A stretch of DNA of 64,000 nt from Pleomorphomonas sp. PLEO (GTDB lineage Bacteria > Pseudomonadota > Alphaproteobacteria > Rhizobiales > Pleomorphomonadaceae). This document shows, piece after piece, positions 46,322 through 57,153 of the stretch; within the stretch, counting starts at the first letter, position 1, and every line of letters begins with the position of its first letter. The stretch spans positions 186,001 to 250,000 of the forward strand of contig NZ_CP166625.1 of the NCBI RefSeq assembly GCF_041320595.1. The letters run 5' to 3'. The notes beneath the pieces are model-generated. The model worked only from the letters and a program-made list of their open reading frames with translations, searched no databases and had not been told where the DNA came from. The position numbers and the translations under genes were made by a program.

Positions 46322-47383
46322 TCAGCGCTTCGGCTCGGCGATCCAGGGCGCCATCGACACGTCGGCCTTGGAGAACTGCGGCAGCTTGGCCGCGAGGTCG
46401 TCCATGTTCTTGATGCCCTTCTCAAGGAGCATCTTCTGGGTGATCAGCGTCGGCGGCACCACCACCTGCTTACCGGTTTCGACACCAGCGAGCTGCAGGG
46501 CCAGCGTGCGCACGCAGACTTCGCCGACCACTGCGGACGATGTGGCCGCCGAGGCTGCCCAAGCGCTCTTATCTTCGACCATGGCCGAGATATCCGGGGT
46601 CGAGATGTCGGCCGAGTAGATCTTGATTTTCTCGTTGAGGCCGGCCTCGTCGACGGCGGTCTTGGCACCCTTGGCGAATTCGTCATAGGGGGCGAAGATG
46701 ACGGAGATGTCGGGGTTGGCGCGCAGCACCGCCGCCGTCTGATCGGCCACCGAGTTGGCGATGGGGTTGTTCATGGTGCCCCAATGCGCCACTTCCTTGA
46801 TGCCGGGATACTTCTTCTTGAAGGCCTGCCAGGTCTCGTCGCGACGGTCGAGCGGCGCGATGCCCGGCACGTAGACGTAACCGGCCGTAAAGCTTTCGCC
46901 GTTGTCAGCGATCGCCTGTTCAAGGGCGAGGCGAGCAAGCTCGCGATCGTTCTGCTCGATCTGCGGAATCGCCTCGTTCTCGCAGTTGACGTCGAAGGCG
47001 ACGACCTTGAAGCCTTCCTGCACGGCCTGGGCGGCCGGATCCTTCAGCGTCTCGGTCAGGCCGTGCTGCAGGATGATGCCGTCGACGCCGAGGTTCATCG
47101 CCTGCTGCAGCATTTCCGCCTGCAGCGCCGCGTCCTGGCGGGAATCGAGCACGTGCAGGTCAAACCCGAGCGCCTCGGCCTGGCGCGTCACACCGGCCAG
47201 ATAGAACTGGAAGAAGTCGCCGGTGGAGAGATAGCGTACCAGCGCGATCTTGATCTTGCGCTCACCGACGATGCCGGGGGCGCCGGCAATGCCTTCGGCG
47301 AAGGCGGCGCGCAGCGGCAGGGCACTGGCAACCGATGCGGTGGCAAGGCCGGCAAGAAATGTCCGTCTGTCGATCGTTGTCAT
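46322..47383 (-). CDS. Ribose-type ABC transporter substrate-binding protein with Tat-like signal
   Basis: This is a periplasmic binding protein of the Peripla_BP_4 family, 353 residues from ATG 47383 (GAGGAG 9 nt upstream). The N-terminus MTTIDRRTFLAGLATASVAS carries a twin-arginine motif, ending LPLRAAFA, whereas most sugar-binding proteins use Sec. The body has IKIALVRYLSTGDFFQFY, GVDGIILQHGL and VIFAPYDEFAKGAKTAVDEA. It is the last gene of a minus-strand importer operon that is divergent from mtnK-mtnA, so 5-methylthioribose, 5-deoxyribose or a related nucleoside is a reasonable ligand. That is inference from context. Confidence 0.9.
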   Translation of the reverse strand: MTTIDRRTFLAGLATASVASALPLRAAFAEGIAGAPGIVGERKIKIALVRYLSTGDFFQFYLAGVTRQAEALGFDLHVLDSRQDAALQAEMLQQAMNLGVDGIILQHGLTETLKDPAAQAVQEGFKVVAFDVNCENEAIPQIEQNDRELARLALEQAIADNGESFTAGYVYVPGIAPLDRRDETWQAFKKKYPGIKEVAHWGTMNNPIANSVADQTAAVLRANPDISVIFAPYDEFAKGAKTAVDEAGLNEKIKIYSADISTPDISAMVEDKSAWAASAATSSAVVGEVCVRTLALQLAGVETGKQVVVPPTLITQKMLLEKGIKNMDDLAAKLPQFSKADVSMAPWIAEPKR

Positions 47384-47472
47384 TTTCTCACTCCTCAAAT
47401 GACGTTTCCGTTGATCTTTCCCGGGCGCGCCTCCTCCGCGCGCCGCGTTTTCCAAGTGGGGCCGGAGCCGGC

Positions 47473-48537
47473 TCAGCGACGCTGCGAGGAGGCGAAGCCG
47501 AAGGTGAACAGCAGGGCGAACACAAGGACGAGGCCCTTGACGAAGTCCTGCGCGTAATAAGGGGCGTTGAGCATGGTGAGGCCGTTGAGCAGCGTACCGA
47601 CGAACAGCGCACCGATGGCCGTACCGAATACGTTGGGCTTCTTGGCGCCAAGCACCGCGTAGCCGATCAGCGCGGCGGCCACCGAATCGAGCAGCAGCGA
47701 CGATCCGGAGGTGACATCGCCACGGCCGACGCGGGCGGCGAGCAGGATGCCGCCGATCGAGGCGAACAGGCCGGAGATCATGTAGGCGGCGATCTTGTAA
47801 CGCTCGACCGGTGCGCCGGCGAGACGGGTGGCCTTCTCATTGCCGCCGATGGCGTAGAGCACGCGGCCATAACGCGAGCGCTCCATGAACACCCAGAGGA
47901 TGATGGCGGCCACCAGCATGATGATCACCGGCAGCGGGATCAGGTCGAACAGCCGGTAGCGGCCGAGCGCCAGGAAGGCGTCAGTGAAGGTGCCGGTCGC
48001 CGCCGAGCCGTCCGACAGCGTCATACCCTTGGCGATCGAGCGGCCACCGGTCGGGATGAGCTGCAAGCCGAGCAGCAAGAACATCATGCCGAGCGTCGCC
48101 AGAAGATCGGGAATGCGGCCCTTGACGATCAAAACGCCGTTGAGGAAGCCGATGAAGGCCCCGAGCAGCAGGCAGACGACGACCGCGAGGAAGGTGCCCT
48201 GGTTGAGGATCACCATCACGTAGCTCGACGCCATCAGCGACATGGCCGCCGTCGAACCGATGGATAGGTCAAAGCCGGCGATGGCGAGCGTGACGGTAAC
48301 CCCAAGCGCCAGAAGCGCCGTCACCGACACGGCCTGCAGGATGGAGAACATATTGCGGGCGTTGGCGAAGGCCGGCTCAAGACGCCAGAAGACGATGACC
48401 ATGATGGCCAGAATGATCAGAAGGCCGAACTTGATGACGAAGTCCTTGAACGAGAAGACGGACTTTGACGCGCCAGCTTGCGCGGCGGCCGTCGGCGCGG
48501 CCGGAGTGGGAGCCGGATTCGGGGATGGGGTGCTCAT
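47473..48537 (-). CDS. Ribose-type ABC transporter permease
   Basis: This RbsC-family permease of about 354 residues begins at ATG 48537 (AAAGG upstream); TTG 48561 is in frame but less likely. It has a Pro/Ala-rich cytoplasmic N-terminal tail (PSPNPAPTPAAPTAAAQAG) before helix 1. Conserved segments are TLAIAGFDLSIGSTAAMSLM and DSVAAALIGYAVLGAKKPNV; the latter departs from the usual LGGTSLxGG in this family, which may bear on specificity or merely reflect a subfamily. It works with the double ATPase encoded upstream. Confidence 0.92.
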   Translation of the reverse strand: MSTPSPNPAPTPAAPTAAAQAGASKSVFSFKDFVIKFGLLIILAIMVIVFWRLEPAFANARNMFSILQAVSVTALLALGVTVTLAIAGFDLSIGSTAAMSLMASSYVMVILNQGTFLAVVVCLLLGAFIGFLNGVLIVKGRIPDLLATLGMMFLLLGLQLIPTGGRSIAKGMTLSDGSAATGTFTDAFLALGRYRLFDLIPLPVIIMLVAAIILWVFMERSRYGRVLYAIGGNEKATRLAGAPVERYKIAAYMISGLFASIGGILLAARVGRGDVTSGSSLLLDSVAAALIGYAVLGAKKPNVFGTAIGALFVGTLLNGLTMLNAPYYAQDFVKGLVLVFALLFTFGFASSQRR

Positions 48538-48564
48538 GATGGAAGCCTTTTGTCTTTTCAAGCG

Positions 48565-50082
48565 TCAGGCGAAAGTTGCGTGGGTACCGGCGCCGCTGAT
48601 CTCGGCGACCAGAGCGTCAAGCGACAGCCCGTCGACCGAATGGCCACCGACCACCGAGAAATCGCGCATGACGATGATTCGGTCGGCGATTTCGGTCGCC
48701 TCCTCAAGATCGGCGCAGATGACCAGCGTTGCCCGGCCAGCAGCCGTTTCACGCAGCCGTCGGCCGATATCCTGGCGGGCGCCGATATCGACGCCTTGGA
48801 ACGGCTCATCGAGGATAAGCAGACGACAGGGCTGGATCAGCCAACGTCCAAGCACGACCTTTTGCTGGTTGCCACCCGACAGTGAACCGATCGGTACGTC
48901 GATGGACGCGCATTTGATGGCGAGGTTGGCGACCTGTCCGGTGGCCGCTCGCCGTTCCTGGTCCGGCACGACCAGAGCGAGCTTGGAAAAATGCCTCAGG
49001 AAAGGCAGTGTCATGTTGTGCAGAACGGAAAACTCGGAGACCAGCGACGAATTGCCACGGTCCTCGTGCGCCATGAACACGCCGCCAGCGATCGCCTCCT
49101 GTGGCGAAGTGGCGCGAAGCGGCTTGCCATCGATCGTCACCGAACCGGTGTGAGCGGTGGCCGTGCCGAACAGGCACTCGGCGAACTCGGTCTTGCCTGC
49201 ACCGATCAGACCGGTCAGCACCACCACCTCGCCTTCCCGAAGATCGAGGTCGAATGGCGCAGAGGTTGGCGTGAGGGCAAAATCGCGAATCTCGACCACC
49301 GTTCGGCCGCCAGCGACGGCGCTGTAGGCACCTTCGCGGAGGCGATGACCGACCATGGCGTGGACGATGCCATCGAAATCGAGCGGACGGACAAATTCGG
49401 CGCGGGTGCGGCCGTCGCGCATGACGACCGCCCGGTCGGCGAGGCGACGGATGTCGGACATGCGATGGCTGATGTAGATGATGGCGACGCCACGTGCCCT
49501 CAGGTCCTCGATCAGCGCGAACAGCCGAGCTGCTTCCGCTTCCGACAAAGAGGAGGTTGGCTCGTCGAGAATCAGTACCTTGGGATCGTGCGACAGAGCG
49601 CGGGCGATGGCGACGAGCTGTCGCTCGGCCTGACCAAGTTCGCTCATCGCCTTGCCGAGCGGCAGATCGAGGCCAAGGATCGCCTGGATCTCGCGCGCTC
49701 GGGCCGTGATGACCGCCCGGCTCAGAAGCATCGGCCCCTCGGGCCGGCAGATCTCATCGAGCGCCAGATTCTCGGCAACGGTGAGCTGTTGCACGACGCC
49801 GTCGTTGATGATCTGGTGAACGGTGTGGATGCCGGCGGCGCAGGCCTCAAGCGGCGAGCGGAAAGTCACCGTCTCGCCATCGATTTCCATCGTTCCGGAA
49901 TCAGCGGGATGCACACCGCAGAGAATCTTGATCAGCGTCGACTTGCCGGCGCCATTGGCGCCCATCAGCGCCAGCACCTCGCCACGTCGAATGTCGAGAT
50001 CGACATCGATGACCGCATGCGTGCTGCCGAAACGCTTGTTCAGCCCACGGATGCGGATCACCTCCCTCCCTGGTTCTGTCAT
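48565..50082 (-). CDS. Ribose-type ABC transporter ATP-binding protein (two NBDs)
   Basis: This RbsA/MglA-type ATPase has 505 residues from ATG 50082 (GGAGG about 11 nt upstream); an in-frame upstream extension to 50169 would run into the presumed operator and is rejected. NBD1 has Walker A GANGAGKST, signature LGQAERQ (degenerate, with SELGQAERQLVAIARAL) and Walker B VLILDEPTSSL. NBD2 has GLIGAGKTE, which keeps the catalytic Lys often lost in this half, then LSGGNQQK and LLILDEPFQGVD. It is the first gene of the importer operon. Confidence 0.93.
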   Translation of the reverse strand: MTEPGREVIRIRGLNKRFGSTHAVIDVDLDIRRGEVLALMGANGAGKSTLIKILCGVHPADSGTMEIDGETVTFRSPLEACAAGIHTVHQIINDGVVQQLTVAENLALDEICRPEGPMLLSRAVITARAREIQAILGLDLPLGKAMSELGQAERQLVAIARALSHDPKVLILDEPTSSLSEAEAARLFALIEDLRARGVAIIYISHRMSDIRRLADRAVVMRDGRTRAEFVRPLDFDGIVHAMVGHRLREGAYSAVAGGRTVVEIRDFALTPTSAPFDLDLREGEVVVLTGLIGAGKTEFAECLFGTATAHTGSVTIDGKPLRATSPQEAIAGGVFMAHEDRGNSSLVSEFSVLHNMTLPFLRHFSKLALVVPDQERRAATGQVANLAIKCASIDVPIGSLSGGNQQKVVLGRWLIQPCRLLILDEPFQGVDIGARQDIGRRLRETAAGRATLVICADLEEATEIADRIIVMRDFSVVGGHSVDGLSLDALVAEISGAGTHATFA

Positions 50083-50162
50083 GCCGAAAACCGCCTCCAC
50101 GGATGTTTGGCAGAGGGTCTCCTCCGACCCGATGGCGGCCAACCTAGTCACCCAAACATCAA

Positions 50163-50182
50163 TTGTCAATCGATCTTGACAA
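50163..50182. promoter_or_regulatory. Candidate SorC operator between importer and mtnK
   Basis: A perfect inverted repeat TTGTCAA (50163-50169) and TTGACAA (50176-50182) with a 6-bp spacer lies between the divergent importer and mtnK-mtnA operons. Each arm also contains a TTGACA pointing outward, so the site could overlap back-to-back -35 elements. The 9-mer ATTGTCAAT here recurs, inverted, ahead of the aldolase gene. Confidence 0.55.
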
Positions 50183-50288
50183 ATGACAAAAACCGGAACA
50201 ACTTCCGCTTCCAGCGACCTCTGCCAGCATCGAGGAGCGACGCATCGTCGTGGTGGAGGCGGAATAAGCGAGGGATGGAGAAGACCCC

Positions 50289-51578
50289 ATGACAGACGTT
50301 CGGAGCGCCCGCACCGGCGGCGCCGACTATCGGCCGCTGACCGAGAGCACGCTGGCGCCCTATCTCGCCGGCTTTTCGGAAGTCGCCGCGATTCTTGGCG
50401 GTGAAACGAAGGATTGGAAAGTCACCGAAGTTGGCGACGGCAATCTCAACCTGGTGTTCATCGTGCGTGGCCCGAAGGGAGCGTTGATCGTCAAGCAGGC
50501 TCTTCCCTATGTGCGCCTCGTCGGCGACTCCTGGCCATTGCCGCTCGACCGCTCCTTCTTCGAAAGCCAGGCGCTGATGACCGAGGGCGCCGCCGCGCCA
50601 GGGCTGGTGCCGAAGGTCGTGCTGTTCGACGCCATGCAGGCGCTGGTGATCATGGAGTTCCTCACCCCGCACATCATCATGCGCAAGGGCTTGATCGACG
50701 GCGTTGAGTTCCTCCGCTTCGCGGCGACGCTGTCGGAATTCATGGCGCAGTCGCTGTTCAAGACCTCCGATCTCTACCTGCCGGCCGCCGAGAAGAAGAA
50801 GCAGATGGCGGTCTTCTGCGCCAACACCGAACTTTGCCGGATTACCGAGGATCTGGTGTTCACCGATCCCTACAGGGCGGCCAAACTCAATCACTGGACC
50901 TCGCCTCAGCTCGACGACATCGCCCTTGAATTCCGCGCCGACGGACCGCTCAAGGCGGCGGCCCAGGCGATGAAGCTCAAGTTCCTCAGCCACGCCGAGG
51001 CGCTGGTGCACGGCGACCTGCATTCCGGCTCGATCATGGCCACTAGCACCGACGTCCGCGTCATCGATCCGGAGTTCGCCTTCTTCGGACCGATGGGGTT
51101 TGACGTCGGCGCGCTGATCGGCAACCTGATCCTCGCCTACCTCAGCCAGATCGGCCACGAGGACGAGAAGGGCGGACGCGACGCCTACCGTGCCTGGATC
51201 AAGAAGCAGATCGTCGACGTTTGGACGCTGTTCTCGGCGCGCTTCGTCGAACTATGGTCGACCGAGGGCAAGGGCGACGCCTTTACCGCCGAGCTGTTTA
51301 CCGACGCGGCGAGCCGGGCGGCGCTGGCTGAGGAGCAGGCCCGCTATATGCGCTCGCTGTTCGAGGACATGCTTGGATTTGCCGGCTGCAAGATGATCCG
51401 CCGCATCCTCGGTCTCGCCCATGTCGCCGATTTCGAGAGCATCGCCGACAAGGACGTGCGCTCCAAGGGCGAGCGGCGAGCCCTACGGCTCGGTCGCGAC
51501 CTTGTGGTCAATCGCACGCGCTTTGCCAGCATAGAGGCTGTGGCCGCTGCCGTGGTTGCCGCCGACACCACCCGCTGA
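50289..51578 (+). CDS. mtnK: S-methyl-5-thioribose kinase
   Basis: MtnK phosphorylates 5-methylthioribose (or 5-deoxyribose) at C1 using ATP. The 429-residue protein has the APH-like kinase fold: the nucleotide-loop region VGDGNLNLVFIV, catalytic loop HGDLHSGSIMAT (Asp base) and metal-binding region VIDPEFAFFGPMGFDVG. The MtnK-specific RLVGDSWPLPLDR stretch is present. GGAGAAG precedes the ATG. mtnA follows about 100 bp later. No 5'-methylthioadenosine nucleosidase or phosphorylase is visible here, so the free sugar probably comes in through the divergent importer or from elsewhere in the cell. Confidence 0.95.
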   Translation: MTDVRSARTGGADYRPLTESTLAPYLAGFSEVAAILGGETKDWKVTEVGDGNLNLVFIVRGPKGALIVKQALPYVRLVGDSWPLPLDRSFFESQALMTEGAAAPGLVPKVVLFDAMQALVIMEFLTPHIIMRKGLIDGVEFLRFAATLSEFMAQSLFKTSDLYLPAAEKKKQMAVFCANTELCRITEDLVFTDPYRAAKLNHWTSPQLDDIALEFRADGPLKAAAQAMKLKFLSHAEALVHGDLHSGSIMATSTDVRVIDPEFAFFGPMGFDVGALIGNLILAYLSQIGHEDEKGGRDAYRAWIKKQIVDVWTLFSARFVELWSTEGKGDAFTAELFTDAASRAALAEEQARYMRSLFEDMLGFAGCKMIRRILGLAHVADFESIADKDVRSKGERRALRLGRDLVVNRTRFASIEAVAAAVVAADTTR

Positions 51579-51681
51579 CGGCCATCCGGCCGCATTCGAC
51601 TGACCCCGAGGGCGGCCAGACCGCCCGCCATAAATGGACCGACCGTTGCGCCTTTGGCGCGACGGCGACCGGAGGCCTTTC

Positions 51682-52782
51682 ATGAAAATCTACGGCAAAT
51701 CCATGCGGACGATCTGGGTTTCGGACGACAGCTGGGGGGTCGAAATCATCGACCAGACCAAGCTGCCCTTCGAGGTCAAGACCCGGACGCTTCGCTCCTG
51801 GCAGGAAGCGGCGACAGCCATCCGTGACATGGTGGTGCGCGGCGCGCCGCTGATCGGCGCCACCGGCGCTTATGGCCTAGCGCTCGCCATGCGCGAGGAT
51901 TCCTCGGATGAAAACCTCGAGCGCGCCTATACCGCCCTGCTCGCCACCCGTCCCACCGCGGTCAACCTCCGTTGGGGCCTCGACGACCTCAAGGGCCGCC
52001 TCATCAAGGTCGCTCCGTCCGAGCGCATGGGCCTTGCCTACCGTCGCGCCGCCGAGATCTGCGACGAAGACGTCGAGACCTGCAAGGCGATCGGCCGGCA
52101 TGGCTTTGCCATTATCCGCGACCTTTGGGAGAAGAAGGGCAAGCCGTCGCGCTTCAACGTCCTCACCCACTGCAACGCTGGCTGGCTCGCCTGCATCGAC
52201 TGGGGCACGGCGCTGGCTCCCATCTACATGGCCTTCGAAGCGGGCATTCCCATCCATGTCTGGGTCGATGAGACGCGGCCGCGCAATCAGGGCGCCAGCC
52301 TCACGGCCTTCGAGCTCGGTCAGCATGGCGTCGATCACACGGTGATCGCCGATAACCAGGGTGGCCATCTGATGCAGCATGGTCTCGTCGACATGGCGAT
52401 CGTCGGCACCGACCGCACCACGGCTACCGGCGACGTCTGCAACAAGATCGGCACCTACCTGAAGGCTCTGGCCGCCCACGACAACGGCGTGCCCTTCTAC
52501 GTCGGCCTACCGTTCACCACCATCGACTGGACGCTGGAAGACGGCGTCCGCGAGATCCCGATCGAGGAGCGCGACGCCCGCGAACTCAGCCACATCACTG
52601 GCCGCACAGCCGACGGTCGCCTGGAGACGGTGGATATTCTTCCCAAGGGCAGCTCGGCGCTCAACTACGGCTTCGATGTGACGCCAGCCCGCCTTGTCAC
52701 CGGCCTGATCACCGAGCGCGGCGTCGCCGCTGCCAGCCGCGACGGTCTCCTCAAGCTCTATCCGGAGCAGAAGGCCAAATGA
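51682..52782 (+). CDS. mtnA: S-methyl-5-thioribose-1-phosphate isomerase
   Basis: MtnA converts 5-methylthioribose 1-phosphate (or the 5-deoxy analogue) to the ribulose 1-phosphate. The 366-residue protein is an eIF2B-like isomerase. The catalytic cysteine C164 is in [11 protein letters not shown] and the catalytic aspartate D244 in [18 protein letters not shown]. The start ATG 51682 has GGAGG 6 nt upstream. The mtnB-mtnC-mtnD enzymes of the full methionine salvage pathway are absent nearby, while a class II aldolase lies 1.3 kb away, pointing to the DHAP shunt. Confidence 0.95.
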
Positions 52783-52830
52783 CAAACTGCCCCTGCCCAG
52801 CATCGGTCGCCCGAGCCGGCGCAGGGGCAC

Positions 52831-52866
52831 GCGCCGGTTCCCCCCAACCGGCGCTTCCTTCTTTCG
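52831..52866 (+). terminator. Terminator after mtnA
   Basis: A 9-bp perfect stem (52831-52839 with 52846-52854, 6-nt C loop) is followed by the pyrimidine tract TTCCTTCTTTC. It ends the mtnK-mtnA transcript before the convergent regulator gene. Confidence 0.7.
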
Positions 52867-52910
52867 CATTCGCTCAGAGCCGAAAGCCGCCCGCTCCGTG
52901 GGTTGGCGAC

Positions 52911-53933
52911 CTAGAGTCGCCCGAGAATATTGCGAGCGGTCGGTTCGTCGGTGATCAACGCGGTGACGTAGCCACCGCGCAGGGCGCCAAGAATGGCGTC
53001 CGTCTTGTCCGTTCCGCCAGCCGCGGCGATGCGAGTCGGCACGCTTCGCACGTCGTCGAGGGTGATGCCGATCATGCGGTCGTCCATGGTGCCGCGCAGC
53101 CAGTTGCCTTCGATGTCGTAGAAGCGACCGGCGATGACGCCGACGGCACCGTTGGAGATGTAATATTTGCTCTCGTCGACGGAAATCAGGCCGGAGGCGA
53201 ACACCAGGCTGTTGGCCTTGACCGTGCAGACGCCGAACAGCAGCTTGTTGCAGGAGCGAATGCGGGCGAACTGTTCCTGAATGGTCGGTTCGCGCATCAG
53301 CGCGTCGCGCAGTGCCGCGTTGGACAGGGCAGCCGGCGCGTGCAGGTTGATCGAACGGGCATGCAGCCGACGGGCGATGAAGGCGACGCATTCCTCGGCC
53401 GTGAAGCCGTCATAGGCGGAGCGCTGGCTGCCGATCACCTGCACGACGCAACTGTCCGGCATGGCCTTTTCCGGCAAGTTCTCGGCCAGCGACAGCACCG
53501 TGCGGCCCCAGGCAACGCCCAGAACGTCGCCGTTCATCAGGATCTGATCGAGATACTGGGCGCCGGCCCGGCCGATACGCTCGCTCGGAGGCCGCATGCC
53601 GCCGTCAAAGGGAATGACCATGCATTCGGTAAGGCCGAAGGCGTGCTTGATCTGCTGGGCAAGGTCGATCGAGTTCAGAAGCTCCGGTCGCACAACCACC
53701 TTGATGTAATGCAGGTCACGCGCCTGCTGAAGGTAGTTCACCACCGTCGCTCGCGACACGCCCATCAGGTCGGCGATCTGGCTCTGCGTCATTTCGTCGT
53801 GATGGTAAAGCCAGGACGCCCAAAGGAGCGGATCGGCGAGGTATTCCCCTGGCCGCGGCAGTGGCGCCCGGTTGTCCCCATCGGCGGCCGTCGATCGGTC
53901 AGCCTTGTCCTTCGTCCTTGAGCGTGGCGCCAT
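52911..53933 (-). CDS. SorC/DeoR-type sugar-binding transcriptional regulator
   Basis: This 340-residue regulator of the SorC family has an N-terminal sigma-like HTH (LLWASWLYHHDEMTQSQIAD then GVSRATVVNYLQQARDLHYI) and a large C-terminal sugar-phosphate-binding domain (ILMNGDVLGVAWGRTVLSLA, AAGGTDKTDAILGALRGGYV). A charged stretch of about 30 residues precedes the HTH. It is divergent from the aldolase gene. Similar 9-bp sequences lie in both intergenic regions of this cluster. It probably senses a phosphorylated intermediate of the methylthio-/deoxyribose route. Confidence 0.92.
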   Translation of the reverse strand: MAPRSRTKDKADRSTAADGDNRAPLPRPGEYLADPLLWASWLYHHDEMTQSQIADLMGVSRATVVNYLQQARDLHYIKVVVRPELLNSIDLAQQIKHAFGLTECMVIPFDGGMRPPSERIGRAGAQYLDQILMNGDVLGVAWGRTVLSLAENLPEKAMPDSCVVQVIGSQRSAYDGFTAEECVAFIARRLHARSINLHAPAALSNAALRDALMREPTIQEQFARIRSCNKLLFGVCTVKANSLVFASGLISVDESKYYISNGAVGVIAGRFYDIEGNWLRGTMDDRMIGITLDDVRSVPTRIAAAGGTDKTDAILGALRGGYVTALITDEPTARNILGRL

Positions 53934-53979
53934 GATCTTCCCAACCCCGTCGCCCGAGTCCTGTCATCCCGGATCGACA

Positions 53980-53988
53980 ATTGACAAT
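53980..53988. promoter_or_regulatory. Candidate SorC half-operator upstream of the aldolase
   Basis: ATTGACAAT is the inverted copy of the 9-mer at 50162-50170. It lies in the 148-bp gap between the SorC regulator and the aldolase. A CGAC(A)AT-like half precedes it but a full palindrome is not clear. Confidence 0.4.
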
Positions 53989-54081
53989 CTGAGTTAACAT
54001 AAGCACCCATTCGCGCCAAGTGCCATTGCTCGTCTGGCGTGTCGAACACGCCCTACCCGACCCCTCATCGAGGACATCAGA

Positions 54082-54792
54082 ATGCCTGCCAGCCTTTCCG
54101 CCCTCTCCCATCTCGCCCTCCGGACCGAGATCATCGCCACCTGCCGCGAAATGAATGCCTCGGGCGTCAACCAGGGCACGTCGGGCAATGTCAGCGTGCG
54201 CATCGGAGAGGGACGATTCCTGGTAACGCCCACGGGTATTCCTTACGCCGGCATGACCGAGGACCAGATCGTCGAGATGACCTTCGACGGCACCTATTAT
54301 GGTCCCTGCCGGCCGACGAGCGAGTGGCGTTTCCACCGCGATATCCTGCTTCATCGGCCGGACATCGACACGGTGATCCATACCCACTCGATGTTCTCGA
54401 CGGTGATTTCCTGCCTGCGCCGCGACATTCCGGCCGTTCATTACATGGTGGCCGCCGCGGGCGGTGAAAACATCCGCTGCGCCGAGTATGCCACCTTCGG
54501 CTCGCAAGCGCTCTCGGACCACGCGCTGAAAGCTCTGGAAGGCCGTCTTGCCTGCCTGCTCGCCAACCACGGGCTGATCGTGCTCGGCGCCAATCTCAAG
54601 AAAGCCTATTCCCTGCTGGTCGAGGTCGAGACCATTGCCGCCCAATATTGGCGGGCGCTTGCCATCGGCGCGCCGGTGATCCTCGACAATGCCGAGATGC
54701 AGAACGTCTTCGCCATGTTCAAGGTTTACGGCCGACAGGACGCGGCCGATTCCGATCTCCGCTGCGGTGGTTTGGCAGCGCCAGCCGCCTGA
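54082..54792 (+). CDS. Class II aldolase, probable 5-methylthioribulose/5-deoxyribulose 1-phosphate aldolase
   Basis: This zinc-dependent aldolase of the FucA/AraD/MtnB family has 236 residues. All key residues align with E. coli FucA: E81 in TSEWRFH, zinc ligands H100 and H102 in IHTHSMFS, and H163 in ANHGLIV. The glycine-rich phosphate loop is NQGTSGNVSVR. Keeping the glutamate indicates an aldolase and not MtnB dehydratase-like chemistry, though the two are close. Beside mtnK, mtnA and an importer, it should split the ketose 1-phosphate to DHAP and (methylthio)acetaldehyde or acetaldehyde. L-fuculose 1-phosphate is the alternative substrate. GAGGA precedes the ATG. Confidence 0.88.
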   Translation: MPASLSALSHLALRTEIIATCREMNASGVNQGTSGNVSVRIGEGRFLVTPTGIPYAGMTEDQIVEMTFDGTYYGPCRPTSEWRFHRDILLHRPDIDTVIHTHSMFSTVISCLRRDIPAVHYMVAAAGGENIRCAEYATFGSQALSDHALKALEGRLACLLANHGLIVLGANLKKAYSLLVEVETIAAQYWRALAIGAPVILDNAEMQNVFAMFKVYGRQDAADSDLRCGGLAAPAA

Positions 54793-54806: not shown

Positions 54807-55781
54807 TCAGACCGGCGTCGCGTGCACCTCGACGCCGGCGGAGTTGAGTCTGGACAGTTCGTCCGGCGTCATCAAGACGGCCGCCGTCGACAGGGCATCC
54901 GCAAGCGCGGCTTGCCCCGCCACGATGCTGACGGCCGAGAAAGCGGAGGCAACGGCGCCCTTCCGAGGGTGCAGTATGTGGCCAATACGGCCGGCAGCGT
55001 TGAGAAGAGTGCCGTCCATCATCGAGGTGGCAACCGCTCGGTCCTTGAGACGCAGTGTCGTTGCCAATGCGTCGCCATTCGGGCCGGCGGCAAGACCGAC
55101 CTTCCAGCCGCCGCCGTCGCGACCGCCGCCGAGGGCCTGGATCTCGCCGATGTCGAGCAACACGTTATCGAAACCGCGTGCCCGCAAAAGATCGGCGACG
55201 CGGTCGGTGATGTAGCCCTGAGCAATCCCGTTCAACGTCATCGCCATGCCCGGTTTGGAAAAACGCACGACCTCTTCGTCGAACATGACCTGATCGAAAC
55301 CAACGCGTACCAGACTGTCTCCGAGTTCGGCAGCGGGCAGCGCATCGGTCCGTCCGCCCGCGAAATGAGCGGCGTAGGCGGCAAATACCGGCTGCACCGT
55401 GGGATCGAACAGGCCGCCCGTTTCAGCGTGTACGCTGCGTACCAACGCCAAAAGGCGCAGGATGTCGGCCTCCGGTGCGTCGAGGCGGCCGTTGGCGTTC
55501 AGGCGGGATAGCGCGCTGTCGGTACGATAGAGGCTGAACAGGGACTCAAGGCGAGCGATCTCTTGCTCCACCGCGGCGAAGGTCGCGGTCGCAAGCGTGG
55601 CATCGGCGCCGACGAGTTCGATCGAGGCATGGGCGCCGAGCGCATTGCCGAACCAGCGGCGAACGGGCGCCGCTGCAAGAGTGGCGGGGACGAAGGCCAT
55701 GGCGGCGAGCGCCGCGCCAATGCGGATGAAGCGGCGCCGAGCAATCGGCCGAACGAGAAGATCTGGCATGGCGGGCCTCAC
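54807..55781 (-). CDS. nosX: FAD:protein FMN transferase, NosX-type ApbE
   Basis: This is a periplasmic flavin transferase of 324 residues that attaches FMN to a threonine of its target; here the target is NosR, whose flavinylation motif is encoded in the same cluster. A twin-arginine-like signal (ARRRFIRIGAALAAMAF) predicts export in folded form. ApbE-family segments are FSLYRTDSALSRLN, NGIAQGYITDRVADLLRARG and the C-terminal GHILHPRKG. The start overlaps the nosL stop by 4 bp. It is the last gene of the nos operon and converges on the aldolase gene with only 14 bp between. Confidence 0.9.
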   Translation of the reverse strand: MRPAMPDLLVRPIARRRFIRIGAALAAMAFVPATLAAAPVRRWFGNALGAHASIELVGADATLATATFAAVEQEIARLESLFSLYRTDSALSRLNANGRLDAPEADILRLLALVRSVHAETGGLFDPTVQPVFAAYAAHFAGGRTDALPAAELGDSLVRVGFDQVMFDEEVVRFSKPGMAMTLNGIAQGYITDRVADLLRARGFDNVLLDIGEIQALGGGRDGGGWKVGLAAGPNGDALATTLRLKDRAVATSMMDGTLLNAAGRIGHILHPRKGAVASAFSAVSIVAGQAALADALSTAAVLMTPDELSRLNSAGVEVHATPV

Positions 55782-56320
55782 ATCTGCATGTCGGAATGAC
55801 TTGATGGGTCGGCACTGGCCGGACCGAGATATTTGTCAGGGATGTCGGCGAGGCTGACGATCGCGCCGCCTTCACGAGCGACGAAGTCGTCGGCGGCCTT
55901 ACGGCTGCCGAAGGGGATTGCCTCGGGCATGCCCATCGCGCCGGCCTGACGGCTGCCGATCACGAACAGAGCCGCGTCGGCGTCGATCCAGTTGTCGCGG
56001 CCGGGCTCGGCCCAGCTCGGCGCCTTTTCCATGTCGGAAACGTAGACAGCGGTGACATCACCGCGCTTCTCGCCACCACGCAGATAGGTGACGGCGTCGC
56101 TCACCTGCGAGAACCATAGGGGATGCTCCTGCCCCTTTTCATGGATCTGCGCCTTGGGGCCTCCGTGGTCGGCAAGGTACATCTGACAGTAATAGCCAAG
56201 CGCCTCGTCGGTCATGGTGACGGCAGCCGGCTTGATGGCCGCTTCTTCCTTGCACGCGGCAAGCGGCAAGGCCAGGGCAGCGGAGATCACCAGGGCGGAG
56301 AGGAGACGGTTGATCATCAT
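55778..56320 (-). CDS. nosL: Copper chaperone lipoprotein NosL
   Basis: NosL delivers Cu(I) for assembly of the CuZ centre of nitrous oxide reductase. From the ATG at 56320, which overlaps the nosY stop as ATGA, the protein has 180 residues. The signal with lipobox LAAC (ISAALALPLAACKEE) predicts a lipid-anchored periplasmic protein. Segments HPLWFSQVSDAVTYL and GSRKAADDF are typical of NosL, and Met-rich ends (GAMGMPEAIPFG, SDMQM) may bind copper. A longer in-frame start at 56374 is rejected because it lies inside nosY. Confidence 0.92.
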   Translation of the reverse strand: MMINRLLSALVISAALALPLAACKEEAAIKPAAVTMTDEALGYYCQMYLADHGGPKAQIHEKGQEHPLWFSQVSDAVTYLRGGEKRGDVTAVYVSDMEKAPSWAEPGRDNWIDADAALFVIGSRQAGAMGMPEAIPFGSRKAADDFVAREGGAIVSLADIPDKYLGPASADPSSHSDMQM

Positions 56321-57153
56321 GGGCGGATTCTCCGGGTGAGGGCCCAGGCGATGGCAAGGCCTGCGACAAGCCACAGGACGAGCACGACGAGCGCACTGGA
56401 AACCGGGAAAGGAAGGGTCCGGGCGAGGCCATCGAGGCCAGCGATCGGTGCATTCGCTTCGATCAGCGCCAGATTGTAGAGGCGGAAGGCGTCACCAGGA
56501 TTGGCGAGGACGAGCGCTGGAAACACCGTCTTGGTGAACGCGCCACCTTGGTCGACAATCACGGCGCCGAGCAGGGCGAGGTCGTAGAGCACCACCAATA
56601 CCAGCCAGGCGCCGATGGCGAGCGCCGCGGCGGTACCGGTCTGGCGCGGCAAGCTGGACAATGCCATGCCCAAGGCGATGAAGACGGCACCCAGCAGAAT
56701 CGCGGTGACGACGAGCCGGCCCCAGGCGATCAGGCCGGCATCATCAGCGCCATGAACGCCGGCGATCACCGCGCCGGCGATGCCGTAACCAATGGCAATG
56801 GCCATCGCCAGTACGGCAAGATGACCAAGGAACTTCGCCAGGACCAGTTCGCCGCGCTTCAGCGGCGTTGCCAGCACCAGTGCCAGCGTTCCGCGCTCGA
56901 TTTCGCCGGCGATGCTGTCGTAGGAGACAAGCAACGCCATCAGCGGCACGAGGTAGACGGTCAGCGTCGACAGGCTCGCCGCCGTCAGCGTCAGCGCGTC
57001 GGCTTTGAGCGCACCGCTCGGGCCAGAACCGAGGAAGGCGAGCGCCAGCGCGAACAGCGTGAAGGCCAACGTCGACAGCAGGACCCAGCGGTTGCGGAAG
57101 GCGAGACGGAACTCGGTTGCGGCCACCGCCGCCATGCGGTCCATGCCGTTCAT
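56317..57153 (-). CDS. nosY: Nitrous oxide reductase maturation permease NosY
   Basis: NosY is the membrane subunit of the NosFY ABC complex, which with NosD supplies sulfur and copper to the CuZ site. It has 278 residues with six helices. The first is FRNRWVLLSTLAFTLFALAL, and the ABC-2 type motif ALVLATPLKRGELVLAKFLG links to the ATPase. The start overlaps the nosF stop by 4 bp and the stop overlaps nosL by 4 bp. Confidence 0.93.
   Translation of the reverse strand: MNGMDRMAAVAATEFRLAFRNRWVLLSTLAFTLFALALAFLGSGPSGALKADALTLTAASLSTLTVYLVPLMALLVSYDSIAGEIERGTLALVLATPLKRGELVLAKFLGHLAVLAMAIAIGYGIAGAVIAGVHGADDAGLIAWGRLVVTAILLGAVFIALGMALSSLPRQTGTAAALAIGAWLVLVVLYDLALLGAVIVDQGGAFTKTVFPALVLANPGDAFRLYNLALIEANAPIAGLDGLARTLPFPVSSALVVLVLWLVAGLAIAWALTRRIRP

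Follow-up and report, generated by a model that had tools for sequence, protein, structure and literature searches.

Here, we propose that a gene cluster of Pleomorphomonas sp. PLEO is likely a regulated uptake-and-cleavage system for the sugar 5-methylthioribose (MTR), and probably also for 5-deoxyribose. The cluster occupies positions 46322-54792 of the window, by which we mean the whole stretch of 64,000 nucleotides analysed (genome positions 186001-250000 of a single 5,476,363-base contig), and consists, in order, of a binding protein, a permease, an ATPase, mtnK, mtnA, a SorC-family regulator and a class II aldolase. The three-gene ATP-binding cassette (ABC) importer is divergent from the mtnK-mtnA pair, and an ApbE-family gene comes after the aldolase. 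The genes, their residues, conservation and linkage, and the statistics of a candidate operator are direct observations. The features are, in window coordinates:

46322-47383, minus strand: substrate-binding protein of the importer (MTR-type); Peripla_BP_4, 105 bits; best Protein Data Bank (PDB) match 4RY8; below all listed NCBIfam equivalog cut-offs
47473-48561, minus strand: importer permease; BPD_transp_2, 147 bits; ribose-permease-like, under the equivalog cut-off
48565-50082, minus strand (predicted start; 50169 in the list of open reading frames, ORFs): importer ATPase; two ABC_tran stretches
50163-50182, no strand: candidate operator TTGTCAA-N6-TTGACAA between the ATPase and mtnK; single match in the genome, conservation, enrichment
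50289-51578, plus strand: mtnK, 5-methylthioribose kinase; TIGR01767
51634-52782, plus strand: mtnA, 5-methylthioribose-1-phosphate isomerase; TIGR00512
52911-53933, minus strand: SorC-family regulator, MtnR-like; PF04198 and identity to YjhU/MtnR
53981-53987, no strand: lone TTGACAA half-site between the SorC gene and ald, a weak candidate from the sequence
54082-54792, plus strand: class II aldolase gene (ald); Aldolase_II, 178 bits; FucA/Ald2 residues; under the FucA cut-offs

In the system we propose, the ABC importer would bring MTR or 5-deoxyribose into the cell, MtnK would phosphorylate the sugar at C1, MtnA would isomerise the phosphorylated sugar to the ribulose 1-phosphate, which the class II aldolase would cleave to dihydroxyacetone phosphate (DHAP) and either (methylthio)acetaldehyde or acetaldehyde; this series of steps is the DHAP shunt. 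The SorC-family relative of MtnR would probably repress the divergent importer and mtnKA promoters through the inverted repeat at 50163-50182, and would be released once a phosphorylated intermediate accumulates; here we infer which ligand the importer binds, which effector the regulator responds to and in which direction it acts. MTR and 5-deoxyribose are waste of universal S-adenosylmethionine (SAM) chemistry and are excreted by many bacteria, Escherichia coli among them (PMC10986504). If our proposal is true, a dedicated importer linked to a repressor and an operator across the order would make these waste sugars a traded source of carbon and sulfur, and the operator would serve as a sequence tag for finding the scavenging trait.

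The original prediction for this DNA, which had named mtnK, mtnA, a class II aldolase, a SorC-type regulator and a ribose-type importer, agrees with both the ORF positions and the family matches. The MtnK (or MtnP) and MtnA pair looked for in a DHAP shunt is present, with MtnK and MtnA both above the curated NCBIfam cut-offs (505 bits against 275 for TIGR01767, and 397 bits against 279 for TIGR00512), and the MtnK product is 91-95% identical to MtnK of Pleomorphomonas species and related soil metagenome-assembled genomes. A CUT2 binding protein, a permease and a double ATPase stand all together, as looked for in an MTR importer. The importer proteins score below every NCBIfam equivalog cut-off shown, and such scores, like those of the aldolase, are expected of a subfamily without its own model. 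Judging from the sequence, the start codon of the ATPase gene is probably the ATG at 50082 and not the TTG at 50169 of the ORF list, which leaves a divergent promoter region of 206 bp at 50083-50288.

What might the importer carry? For a structure model of the binding protein (mean predicted local distance difference test score 92), the first Foldseek match is 4RY8 (E 7e-34, 36% identity), titled “5-methylthioribose transporter solute binding protein” (Tlet_1677 of Thermotoga lettingae), in which MTR is presumably the bound ligand. It is followed by 5ULB from Yersinia (3e-28) and other sugar proteins from 7e-19 downward, with the first protein titled as a ribose transporter appearing only at 1e-17. 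A sequence search of the PDB likewise places 4RY8 first at 212 bits, 5ULB next at 131 bits and ribose proteins at 44 bits or less, so that 4RY8 is the best match by sequence and fold, but a Thermotogae protein. Being nearest to 4RY8 is not a specific feature, as a paralogue away from mtnK shares it. We therefore read the subfamily from the 4RY8 match and the ligand from the linkage to mtnK; very probably, the importer takes up MTR or a close 5-deoxypentose.

A scan with MtnK kept 80 of 115 related loci, and the arrangement of permease-ATPase, mtnK-mtnA, SorC and ald recurs in 10 Pleomorphomonas-Siculibacillus loci (L005-L013 and L015), among them L006 of P. oryzae and L015 of P. koreensis, which speaks against a chance arrangement. 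The binding protein is absent from only one of these (L007), whose contig ends there; a further locus, L014, is cut before the aldolase, and in all 10 uncut loci of the group the aldolase is placed with mtnK-mtnA. By tblastn, a relative of the binding protein is present in at least 24 of the 80 loci (a lower bound, because many contigs end near mtnK), including loci of Pleomorphomonas, Siculibacillus, Martelella, Treponema, Thermotogae, Chloroflexota and Firmicutes. The binding protein of the Thermotogae locus L078 reaches 654 bits to 4RY8 and stands with an ATPase, a permease, mtnK and mtnA.

Within a sample of 297 genomes of the order, mtnK scores above its cut-off in 73 (96 at E <=0.001), and we compared 77 mtnK regions, with our own window left out and one mtnK below the cut-off included. 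At thresholds of 200, 300 and 380 bits for the binding protein, permease and ATPase, the importer is present in 39 of the 77 regions. SorC occurs in 28 of the 39 importer-bearing regions against 2 of the 38 others, MtnA in 33 against 18, and the aldolase in 14 against 9. The reverse search with the binding protein (at most 6 candidates scored per genome) yielded 57 matches in 48 of the 297 genomes at E <=1e-40, with 45 of them, in 40 genomes, lying within 10 kb of mtnK. All 40 matches that reach 55% identity (own included) are linked in this way, and the 12 unlinked matches have 39-54% identity. This comparison of neighbourhoods, which the original prediction had suggested, bears out the co-occurrence of the importer with mtnK and SorC, more than with the aldolase; we reject a DHAP-shunt-specific importer, given that the aldolase is not clearly enriched and that one genus pairs the importer with mtnD.

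In that genus, the downstream chemistry points to the ligand. Matches to acireductone dioxygenase (the product of mtnD) exceed 90 bits in 8 of the 297 genomes (12 are above the curated cut-off and 35 at E <=0.001), and in 6 of these 8 (G099, G130, G225, G244, G278 and G293), all of the one genus, mtnD lies 3.4-4.2 kb from an importer-bearing mtnK. The enzyme acts on a methylthio compound, so that the sugar imported in this genus should be MTR. This favours MTR as the ligand, and the importer looks like an MTR importer joined to differing downstream routes.

With regard to the aldolase, the residues E81, H100, H102 and H163, which had been read from the sequence as the FucA catalytic set, are invariant in an 8-row alignment that includes E. 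coli FucA and E. coli Ald2; the gene is thus a clustered class II aldolase with the metal ligands and catalytic glutamate looked for in a DHAP shunt. The protein shares 48% of its residues with E. coli FucA and 42% with E. coli Ald2, and scores 229 and 216 bits against the FucA models, whose cut-offs are 264 and 400 bits, respectively. PF00596 matches four proteins in the genome, namely the window aldolase, AraD, RhaD and a FucA-like protein encoded next to fucI; therefore, a fucose aldolase is present elsewhere in the genome and mtnB is not seen among the four. The separate FucA-like gene can serve fucose, its neighbour being FucI-like (734 bits, under the cut-off of 775, in an ORF truncated at the locus end). 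As for mtnD, PF03079 has no match anywhere in the 5.48 Mb genome. Thus, of mtnB, mtnC and mtnD, all predicted to be missing, the first and last are indeed not found genome-wide, no search having been made for mtnC.

The internal supply of MTR was considered through the five places in the genome that match PF01048. Three are a purine-nucleoside phosphorylase, a uridine-phosphorylase-like protein and an AMP nucleosidase, and the other two are a weakly matching nucleosidase-like domain inside a very long frame (L087, genome 2206054-2206848; 64 bits to PRK05584, below the cut-off) and part of a TIGR01705 methylthioadenosine/S-adenosylhomocysteine nucleosidase; none of the proteins at these five places, some of them partial, is above the MtnP cut-off. 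The TIGR01705 gene (L089, genome 1759810-1760393) is in two pieces in two frames, which is either a sequencing error or a real loss, and a TIGR01705 match above the cut-off in one frame is present in 9 of the 12 other genomes of the genus. We therefore regard an internal supply of MTR as uncertain in this genome and as likely in most of its relatives.

The regulator is a SorC-family protein with a helix-turn-helix and a Sugar-bind domain (PF04198, 230 bits), is 41% identical over 311 residues to E. coli YjhU, and has DeoR, SorC and LsrR as its solved relatives. YjhU has been shown to be a repressor of the DHAP shunt and was renamed MtnR (PMC12632272), so that the SorC-type regulator seen in the original prediction turns out to be related to a known repressor of this pathway.

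The candidate operator, which is new here, has the sequence TTGTCAA-TCGATC-TTGACAA. The pattern TTGTCAAN{4,8}TTGACAA has one match in the whole genome, that at 50163-50182, and all 11 loci L005-L015 keep the repeat upstream of mtnK. In the 77 regions of the order, which are mutually related and whose counts are hence non-independent, TGTCAAN{4,7}TTGACA occurs 18 times in the 30,800 bp upstream of mtnK as against once in 1,348,083 bp elsewhere. It is found in 17 of the 39 importer-bearing regions versus 1 of the 38 others; where SorC is present the count is 16 of 30, versus 2 of 47 where it is absent; a mirrored control pattern gave 0 matches in the same regions. When all 6-base inverted repeats upstream of mtnK are ranked, TGTCAA comes first, being present in 18 of the 77, and no unrelated repeat occurs in more than 4. 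Of the 10 loci L005-L013 and L015, 9 also have a lone TTGACAA half-site upstream of ald, versus 0 of the 7 other loci listed. E. coli ATCC 25922 (L099) has a perfect palindrome, TTGTCA-CA-TGACAA, 50-37 bp before the mtnK start codon. We do not claim one operator shared with E. coli, as the spacing is off by about six bases and the authors of the E. coli study favour another site, CAAATxxxxxxxxxATTTG (PMC12632272). The MtnR recognition sequence is left open by that study (PMC12632272), and our candidate offers a testable answer, at least for these bacteria.

Several observations weigh against our proposal, and some of them favour an alternative. Of the importer-bearing regions, 23 of 39 are without a strict operator match; TGTCAAN{5,6}TTGACA occurs somewhere in at least 101 of the 297 genomes, also away from mtnK; and the TTGACA within each arm of the repeat could make the two arms a pair of divergent -35 boxes. 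With TTGACA in each arm, overlap with -35 boxes is likely, and steric block is the natural guess for how repression would work. As to the ligand, it is possible, if rather doubtful, that the cluster is mainly for 5-deoxyribose, the waste of radical-SAM chemistry, and not for MTR. The same enzymes process both sugars, the genome carries the nitrogenase genes nif and anf, and nitrogenase maturation uses radical-SAM chemistry. The MtnK of E. coli, moreover, favours 5-deoxyribose tenfold over MTR (PMC10986504), whereas the binding protein is nearest to the MTR-transporter protein 4RY8, and related importers stand near mtnD in one genus, where only the methylthio sugar needs this gene.

The match to 4RY8 has its own control. 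The genome holds two paralogues of the binding protein, each 51% identical to it (L184, genome 4123134-4124144, and L185, genome 3517430-3518440), and the first, which stands away from mtnK beside RuBisCO-like, split transketolase-like and BisC-type reductase genes, is also best matched to 4RY8 (221 bits); the 4RY8 match alone therefore leaves the ligand unfixed. This paralogue, the CUT2 fold and the 12 of 57 binding-protein matches not near mtnK would suit an importer for a common pentose or apiose-like sugar that lies beside housekeeping mtnK-mtnA by descent only. We consider this unlikely, as the 12 all have 54% identity or less, every match from 55% upward, across several families, is linked to mtnK, and the divergent operator is conserved. 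Finally, in a tree of 35 aldolase rows (near-identical redundant rows from 13 loci excluded), a split of Ald2 from FucA is indecisive: E. coli Ald2 joins E. coli FucA at 100/100, so that sequence and tree cannot separate the two activities, and the genome's own FucA groups with the window aldolases at 90/89. That the window aldolase is a second fuculose-phosphate aldolase, with the MtnA product handled elsewhere, would fit its 48-52% identity to FucA proteins and the 25 of 39 importer-bearing clusters without a nearby aldolase, but is highly improbable given the existing fucI-linked FucA, the mtnD and mtnB genes not found in the genome, and the placement of the aldolase with mtnK-mtnA in every uncut locus of the group.

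Returning to the uptake and cleavage of MTR, scavenging through dedicated uptake, which the original prediction had put forward as novel, is already published. Beaudoin et al. 2018 (PMC6079011) included transporter genes in their drawings of four such clusters and put forward the salvage of exogenous 5-deoxyribose, E. coli depends on the shunt to grow on external 5-deoxyribose (PMC10986504), and the E. coli shunt operon includes a putative transporter gene and is repressed by MtnR (PMC12632272). In addition, MTR ABC transporters have been predicted in methionine salvage clusters (PMC3228920, PMC4239095). The new part is the variant seen in this order, which combines a divergent ABC importer of MTR type with a relative of MtnR and a candidate operator; in the open-licence PMC literature, we found no paper on such an importer in this bacterial order.

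We draw these distinctions from the known systems. The mtnK-mtnA-ald2-permease operon of E. coli ATCC 25922 has the same three enzymes (47%, 62% and 42% identity), a transporter gene and a SorC-type regulator (MtnR/YjhU, 41% identical), but its transporter is a GRP-family permease at the operon end, where here a three-gene ABC importer is divergent, and its operator spacing differs. The clusters for 5-deoxyribose disposal share a kinase or phosphorylase, an isomerase, a class II aldolase and, in four, transporters, while the available portions of that paper make no mention of transporter class or regulator and do not name this bacterial group (PMC6079011). The mtrACB and mtnXYZ systems, compared by their published description, likewise have a sugar-type ABC importer beside mtnK-mtnA, but are linked to a complete mtnBCDE set under MetJ or S-box control (PMC3228920, PMC4239095). 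The DHAP-ethylene and DHAP-methanethiol shunts of R. rubrum and R. palustris, which operate with a methylthio-alkane reductase, have the MtnA and Ald2 steps and a MarD-like protein in common with our genome, but use MtnP where the window cluster uses MtnK and an importer (PMC5893883, PMC12552129).

Such a reductase may be present in Pleomorphomonas sp. PLEO. PF00148 matches eight places in the genome: four, in one stretch at 5.30-5.31 Mb, are taken for nifDK and nifEN, one pair is above the anfDK cut-offs, and the pair at genome 4149463-4152160 (L096, L097 and L100) is MarDK-like, its alpha chain scoring 592 bits to the MarDK structure 9FMG (PMC12552129). In the relative G243, the same Mar genes stand beside a nifH-like reductase gene and genes of cystathionine/homocysteine enzyme families. 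We suggest, quite tentatively, that in this nitrogen-fixing Pleomorphomonas relative, imported MTR would be cut by the shunt under an MtnR-type repressor and an operator shared across the order, and that its methylthio part would pass through 2-methylthioethanol to the reductase 3.9 Mb away, yielding methanethiol (for methionine) and ethylene, and so scavenging sulfur from MTR excreted by other microbes. MarD as an obligatory partner is rejected: it is found in 6 of the 297 genomes of the order and 2 of 7 of the genus, with an mtnK above the cut-off in just 3 of the 6, and is therefore an optional one.

Beyond the aldolase, the stretch at 54807-56374 (minus strand) adjoining the cluster holds the ApbE-family gene and what we take to be a NosL-like lipoprotein gene. 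These are probably the edge of a nitrous-oxide reductase cluster.

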